Source of the DNA: Oscillospiraceae bacterium | GTDB taxonomy: Bacteria > Bacillota > Clostridia > Oscillospirales > SIG530 | Assembly: GCA_015067075.1 (NCBI GenBank) | Contig: SVND01000015.1 | Location: 1 to 50,421, forward strand | Reading direction: 5' to 3' | Length of the DNA: 50,421 nucleotides | In this document: piece by piece, positions 268 through 1,116 of the stretch | Numbering within the stretch: the first letter of the stretch is position 1 | How the letters are laid out: each line of letters opens with the position of its first letter | Notes under the pieces: model-generated | Databases searched by the model: none | The model's input: the letters and a program-made list of their open reading frames with translations, nothing else | Told to the model about the DNA's origin: nothing | Position numbers and translations under genes: made by a program

Positions 268-1116
268 ATGAAAAAAACATTAAGAATCTTCGCGGCTGTT
301 ATGGCAGTTATGATGCTCGTACTCTGCTTCACAGCTTGCGCAGGCACCGCATCATCCAAGGCAAAGGTTATTGAGTTTAAGCTCACAGAAGAAGAGTACG
401 CTTTCGGCGTTGACAAGAATCAGCCTGAGCTTCTCGAAAAAGCAAACGAATTCATCGCAAAGATAAAGGCAGACGGCACGTTTGATGATATCTGCGACAA
501 GTATTTCGGCGACGGCACACCTACAGCTGTTAAGAGCGCCGCTCTCGACGAGTCCAAGGATCAGCTTGTTGTTGCTACAAACGCAGGTTTTGAGCCCTTC
601 GAATACATGATCGGTGAAGATTATTACGGAATCGACCTTGAAATCGCTGCTCTCTTTGCTCAGGAGCTCGGCAAGGAACTCGTTATTTCCAACATGGACT
701 TTGACGCTGTATGCCTTTCCGTTGGTCAGAGCAAGGCTGATATAGCTATGGCTGGTCTTACAATCAAGGAAGACCGCAAGGAGTATGTAAACTTTACAGA
801 TAAGTATTACGATGCTTCTCAGATGCTTATCGTTCCTGCTGACGATACAACATTCGACGCTTGCACATCCGCTGACGAAGTTGCTGCTCTCCTTGAAGAG
901 CTTGACGACACAAAGAAGATCGGTGTTCAGCAGGGTACAACAGGTCAGTTCTATGTTGACGGCGACGAAAGCTGGGGCTTTGCCGGTCTCACAGCTAAGT
1001 CTGTTGGATACAAGTCCGGTTCTCTTGCTGTAAACGATATGCTTAACGGTAACATCGATTACGTTATTATCGACGAAGCTCCTGCTCACTGCATCGTTGA
1101 CGCTATAAACGGTTAA
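268..1116 (+). CDS. Amino-acid ABC transporter substrate-binding lipoprotein, apparently circularly permuted
   Basis: Extracytoplasmic receptor of a polar amino-acid uptake system (SBP_bac_3 type). Residues 1-23 are a lipoprotein signal peptide with FTAC, so Cys24 would carry the lipid anchor. The order of the body is unusual. Residues about 40-84 (EEEYAFGVDK, then LEKANEFIAKIKADGTFDDI, then DKYFG) look like the C-terminal end of ordinary family members. The usual N-terminal start (LVVATNAGFEPFEY) appears only at about 100-113. The chain ends at GNIDYVIIDEAPAHCIVDAI, which normally precedes that C-terminal segment. This reads as a circular permutation at the native termini. A hairpin then the permease and ATPase genes follow. 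The class is confident; the ligand is unknown, with cystine, glutamine or arginine as possibilities. Confidence 0.9.
   Translation: MKKTLRIFAAVMAVMMLVLCFTACAGTASSKAKVIEFKLTEEEYAFGVDKNQPELLEKANEFIAKIKADGTFDDICDKYFGDGTPTAVKSAALDESKDQLVVATNAGFEPFEYMIGEDYYGIDLEIAALFAQELGKELVISNMDFDAVCLSVGQSKADIAMAGLTIKEDRKEYVNFTDKYYDASQMLIVPADDTTFDACTSADEVAALLEELDDTKKIGVQQGTTGQFYVDGDESWGFAGLTAKSVGYKSGSLAVNDMLNGNIDYVIIDEAPAHCIVDAING

Follow-up and report, generated by a model that had tools for sequence, protein, structure and literature searches.

A probable natural circular permutant of a type II polar-amino-acid ABC receptor, and the recurrence of permutation in the SBP_bac_3 family

We describe a receptor gene that is very likely (with a probability of roughly 0.9) a natural circular permutant of a type II polar-amino-acid ABC receptor, derived from a canonical gene by head-to-tail duplication and truncation. 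It encodes an SBP_bac_3 receptor lipoprotein of 282 aa and occupies positions 268 to 1116 of the forward strand in the window, as we call the whole 50,421-nucleotide stretch of Oscillospiraceae DNA that was analyzed; the identification combines the open reading frame, Pfam, PDB sequence matches and an orthologue alignment. As a rule, a natural circular permutant is known as the outcome of one ancient event. In SBP_bac_3, natural circular permutation recurs, with different cut points.

Segment order and structure model

The whole protein matches PF00497 with an E value of 3.7e-30 (104.8 bits against a gathering cut-off of 26.4), and the profile lies on it in reversed order, with positions 97 to 131 at nucleotides 250 to 510 followed by positions 1 to 112 at nucleotides 565 to 912. 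The canonical SBP_bac_3 order (lobe 1, lobe 2, lobe 1) is therefore not that of the window receptor, which Pfam, NCBIfam and Foldseek all place among type II amino-acid receptors. The PDB sequence search also gave two pieces, residues 99 to 276 matching the N-terminal ~165 residues of solved canonical receptors (AncQR 11 to 174, domain E value of 2.4e-17) and residues 32 to 82 matching their C-terminal 50 (AncQR 183 to 233, domain E value of 6.2e-5), with the same two-piece match to GlnBP, B. pseudomallei GlnBP and others. The top PDB match was 6h30, a GlnP-type tandem SBD1-SBD2, and ran across the domain junction, because such a tandem junction has the identical segment order. No colinear match to any solved chain was found in the PDB by sequence or with the 71-orthologue profile, and no solved permuted structure was found there by fold with Foldseek.

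The chain can be read as follows. A lipoprotein signal peptide (268 to 339; model helix at residues 2 to 22) leads up to Cys24 (codon 337 to 339). It is followed by the relocated native C-terminal segment (364 to 513), which comprises the last lobe-2 strand, the second hinge and the two closing helices, as judged from the C-termini of solved receptors, Pfam profile positions 97 to 131 and model helices at residues 53 to 68 and 71 to 80. A first-pass annotation had already recognized this closing segment and bounded it at residues 40 to 84; PDB and Pfam matches uphold its identity, while the segment is slightly longer than proposed, at about residues 33 to 82. The linker from the native C-terminus to the native N-terminus (GDGTPTAVKSAALDESKD; residues 83 to 98, 514 to 561) was delimited by profile positions, according to which the old termini are bridged by about 15 to 19 residues in the window clade. 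The remainder (562 to 1113; Pfam, PDB sequence matches and model) runs from the native lobe-1 N-terminal strand into lobe 2. That strand, at residue 99 by the PDB matches, indeed comes after the closing segment, as the annotation had held. So, too, does the chain stop where ordinary members continue: past helix DEAPAHCIVDA of lobe 2, within the loop ahead of the last lobe-2 strand, just before the moved segment would resume.

The position of the cut differs from the one first suggested, a reopening in the hinge-side crossover. Residues T40 to Y44 align with GlnBP 181 to 185 in the PDB sequence alignment, the second hinge of GlnBP, which places the new N-terminus one lobe-2 strand, ~7 residues, before the hinge and thus within lobe 2. 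An AlphaFold model built with 71 orthologues was confident (pLDDT of 92.4 and pTM of 0.79). Most of the moved segment scored 95 to 98 and showed the expected strand-strand-helix-helix pattern; the model does not contradict a packing of residues 33 to 82 as the native C-terminal helices. Foldseek, which is bound to chain order, aligned only ~186 columns of the model to canonical amino-acid receptors, as is expected of a permutant.

Operon, orthologues and source genome

The receptor is the first gene of an operon, followed on the same strand by a permease and an ATPase according to Pfam and NCBIfam profiles. A putative sigma-A-like promoter (TTGACT-17-TATAAT, 206 to 234) was picked out by a consensus scan as a consensus match, with 11 of 12 positions matching. 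The permease (1188 to 1895) is of the PAAT type, matching BPD_transp_1 and scoring above the TIGR01726 HEQRo_perm_3TM cut-off; a profile match identifies the GlnQ-like ABC ATPase (1879 to 2700), and a sequence scan placed a candidate intrinsic terminator hairpin at the operon end (2712 to 2740). Between the receptor and permease genes lies a stable hairpin (1136 to 1166; RNA fold z = -4.55, with 0 of 200 shuffles as stable), in the outer stem of which CUCC is paired with the GGAGG of the permease. By its sequence and position, this hairpin might be an attenuator or an element that masks the ribosome binding site, and it could control the receptor-to-permease ratio. No riboswitch or T-box that might hint at the ligand was seen in the window or near 13 of the orthologues.

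We found 80 homologous loci in other clostridial genomes, 61 to 74% identical, full-length and colinear, including the isolates Acetivibrio mesophilus, A. straminisolvens, Thermoclostridium caenicola and Mediterraneibacter massiliensis. All keep the permuted order, which excludes chance. The 78 single-domain orthologues (one of which, L054, is cut by its contig end) carry at most 6 residues past the last matched position, and among those with the gene end present in the contig not one has the additional C-terminal copy of the segment, which had been named beforehand as one of two findings that would speak against permutation. In one locus, L061, a window-type permuted receptor is fused in frame to its own permease, giving a protein of 534 aa. 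Where enough sequence is available, the permease directly follows the receptor in 76/76 orthologous loci and the ATPase is present in 67/67. Full-length window-type matches were confined to the same class in a 250-genome sample of the phylum.

Alignments with GlnBP and AncQR located the ligand-site residues. T165 and R170 align with the carboxylate-binding Thr70 and Arg75 of GlnBP, and F108 and F145 align with F13 and F50; D269 lies in the motif that bears GlnBP Asp157. All five window residues, as well as Cys24, are invariant in the 71-row orthologue alignment, so that the conserved alpha-amino-acid site of SBP_bac_3 (Thr/Arg plus Asp) is present. Most likely the window receptor binds an amino acid and hands it to the importer encoded beside it, as its canonical relatives do. 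The proposal that a permutation was fixed in evolution while the lipid anchor was carried along is well supported by the segment order, the 80 orthologues, the invariant Cys24 and the confident model.

The window gene comes from a gut bacterium and places the normal tail of the protein first in its chain. A six-frame family search of this genome, a draft that is 95.9% complete, recovered only two SBP_bac_3 genes, both permuted, and none in canonical order. The product of the second gene, on contig C67, shares about 24% identity with that of the window gene and has the same cut. This gene (L001/L130, G000:C67) belongs, with L120 to L126 and L209 to L211, to a second, very divergent permuted clade with the window-type cut.

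Recurrence of permutation in the family

A class-wide search revealed further permuted receptors, which fall into three classes of cut point, all in lobe 2. With every cut found, the chain still begins with a signal peptide or lipobox, and the anchor has moved to lobe 2. L093 to L096 are cut as in the window gene, yet their closest grouping is with L103, which is canonical. The cut is also the same in a permuted set from genus g57, where 16 of 59 genomes carry a full-length permuted orthologue (81 to 100% identity to that of G058) and the remaining ones mostly a canonical orthologue with the segment directly downstream. At the g57 loci (L132 to L164), one and the same receptor thus occurs in both permuted and canonical form within a single genus, and the neighboring genes on both sides are the same in G058 (permuted) and in G085 and G135 (both canonical). 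Type 2 receptors (L098 to L100, L102, L104, L115, L117 and L176) are cut just after the first strand of lobe 2, and type 3 receptors, L173 (G309) and L174 (G275), slightly later, after the first helix of lobe 2. Since the latter two are close to the window clade, their sequences suggest that the cut point itself can move.

For the trees, permuted proteins were rotated to canonical order, giving a careful tree of 69 rows and a quick tree of 94; L128b and L129 were excluded from the tree tests for their very long branches, and the distant clade C features in the quick tree but not in the careful one. Both trees require six switches between canonical and permuted order. In the careful tree the g57 permuted set forms one clade (100/98) nested among canonical relatives, L093 to L096 form another (100/98) beside canonical L103 (100/98), and the window clade and its near relatives are separate (100/99). 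Approximately unbiased (AU) tests rejected one origin for all type 1 cuts (p of 6e-6), as well as a common origin of the g57 permuted set with L093 to L096 (p of 2e-36) and of the window clade with the g57 permuted set (p of 0.007) or with type 2 (p of 0.015). A common origin of the window clade and L093 to L096 was not rejected (p of 0.11 and 0.063). Parsimony gives no direction to the switches; canonical order was taken as ancestral because it is universal outside the permuted clades and paraphyletic in g57. The topology tests force at least two origins of permutation in SBP_bac_3, and there were probably five or more. Consequently, permuted homologues do not cluster in one clade, a pattern for which the first-pass annotation had proposed a survey.

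Origin, meaning of the moved anchor and known systems

The most plausible route begins with a canonical receptor gene that would have been duplicated in frame, head to tail. Truncation would then have trimmed copy 1 at its front, behind the signal peptide and lipobox, and copy 2 at its back. In the product, the signal peptide would be followed by the last strand of lobe 2 with the closing helices, then by the linker, lobe 1 and most of lobe 2. This protein would retain the fold and the amino-acid site, and a short tether would connect the lipid anchor to lobe 2 rather than to lobe 1. It would presumably trap its amino acid by lobe closure and pass it to the neighboring permease and ATPase. A linker does join the old C-terminus to the old N-terminus in the window receptor, and the g57 linkers still display both old ends (YIP.., then FTT(I/V)E.GKLIMATN), as expected of two copies joined head to tail and trimmed. 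Elsewhere in the family, L193 (G312:C391) is a lipoprotein of 549 aa with two complete canonical receptor domains in tandem and no permease, which by its architecture looks like a first step toward permutation; it adjoins a single-domain paralogue. Permuted-phase domains are fused to a permease singly in L117, in pairs in L127 and L128 and in threes in L119, with more examples in L194 to L206; these fusions start in lobe 2, and their last lobe-1 half runs through a lobe-2 strand into the permease. The tandem canonical and tandem permuted-phase forms look like duplication intermediates and show that duplication occurs in this receptor family. Neither a canonical-order relative nor a tandem intermediate was found inside the window clade among the relatives compared, so its duplication step is drawn from other clades. 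We infer the ligand, the transport function and the exact duplication-truncation path of the window clade.

The same segment order might instead reflect a leftover of an upstream copy, with the fold completed by another chain or by a segment swap in a dimer. TmArgBP, which swaps its C-terminal helix, is among the closest Foldseek matches, and the tandem junction of 6h30 has the same order. However, the protein has no C-terminal segment other than the moved one, which 71 orthologues conserve strongly, a second copy appears in no orthologue, and the six-frame search of the draft genome showed no canonical SBP_bac_3 gene to act as donor, making this reading improbable. That pieces of two genes were joined during assembly or binning might be suspected in a draft of 85 contigs where the window starts at a contig end, yet we give this practically no weight, as the same order appears in 80 independent assemblies, several from isolates, and a separate case occurs in 16 genomes of another genus.

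Given a permutation by duplication and truncation, why it recurs can be read in two ways. The events may be neutral, with duplication and truncation frequent and lobe-2 surface loops tolerating any cut that keeps the signal peptide and the fold; the independent origin of several permutants, in at least three cut classes, and the coexistence of permuted and canonical g57 orthologues in an operon without obvious change fit this account, to which we would give even odds. Against it, every cut found is in lobe 2 and relocates the anchor there, the window clade is widespread and conserved, and permuted g57 orthologues have a shorter lipid tether than canonical ones (median of 4 versus 21 residues; Mann-Whitney p of 2e-5, uncorrected for shared ancestry), a difference that is a hint only, since the rows are related and the two classes differ in how their strand starts were placed. 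The permutation may alter how the receptor faces its permease. A more tentative and rather less probable idea is that recurrent permutation is adaptive: once the anchor (or the permease, in fusions) sits on lobe 2 rather than lobe 1, lobe closure or docking would be coupled to the membrane in a different way. If so, permutation would be an adaptive way of re-tethering a receptor, and fusions in which a lobe-2 strand enters the permease would be comparable to ionotropic glutamate receptors with their S1-to-channel connection, a junction similar to the exit point of these fusions. The relation between anchor position and receptor-permease coupling can now be addressed by a simple swap experiment. 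Canonical and permuted orthologues coexist in g57 with common gene surroundings (shown for G058, G085 and G135), which makes both mechanism and consequence directly testable and the pair an ideal natural experiment. Profile-based annotation silently scores permuted receptors as two fragments.

No report of a natural permutation in SBP_bac_3 was found in the open-access literature, which yielded only engineered sensors and TpMglB-2, the nearest precedent. TpMglB-2 (Tp0684) of Treponema pallidum is a circularly permuted glucose-binding lipoprotein ("Type Ic/Cluster Bc") with homologues in gut Gram-positives, for which the authors proposed a link to membrane tethering (PMC4990184). Like the window receptor, it is a tethered ABC receptor that was circularly permuted in nature; it differs in being a type I sugar receptor of another fold, with N-lobe strands moved C-terminally, a fourth crossover and a poor sequence match of the permuted part. 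The two events are unrelated. The type II assignment by Pfam, NCBIfam and Foldseek places the window receptor outside Type Ic/Cluster Bc. The junction in GlnP-type SBD1-SBD2-permease proteins (6h30) has the local order of the window receptor, and such a protein is a plausible kind of ancestor, although each GlnP domain is complete and canonical, whereas here there is a single permuted domain, or concatemers in permuted phase (L117, L119, L127 and L128). Canonical PAAT receptors (PF00497: GlnH/GlnBP, ArtJ, HisJ and AncQR) share with the window receptor the common two-lobe family, the site residues corresponding to T165, R170 and D269 and an operon with permease and ATPase. They are anchored on lobe 1, while the window receptor has the permuted order, its closing helices at the N-terminus and its anchor on lobe 2.
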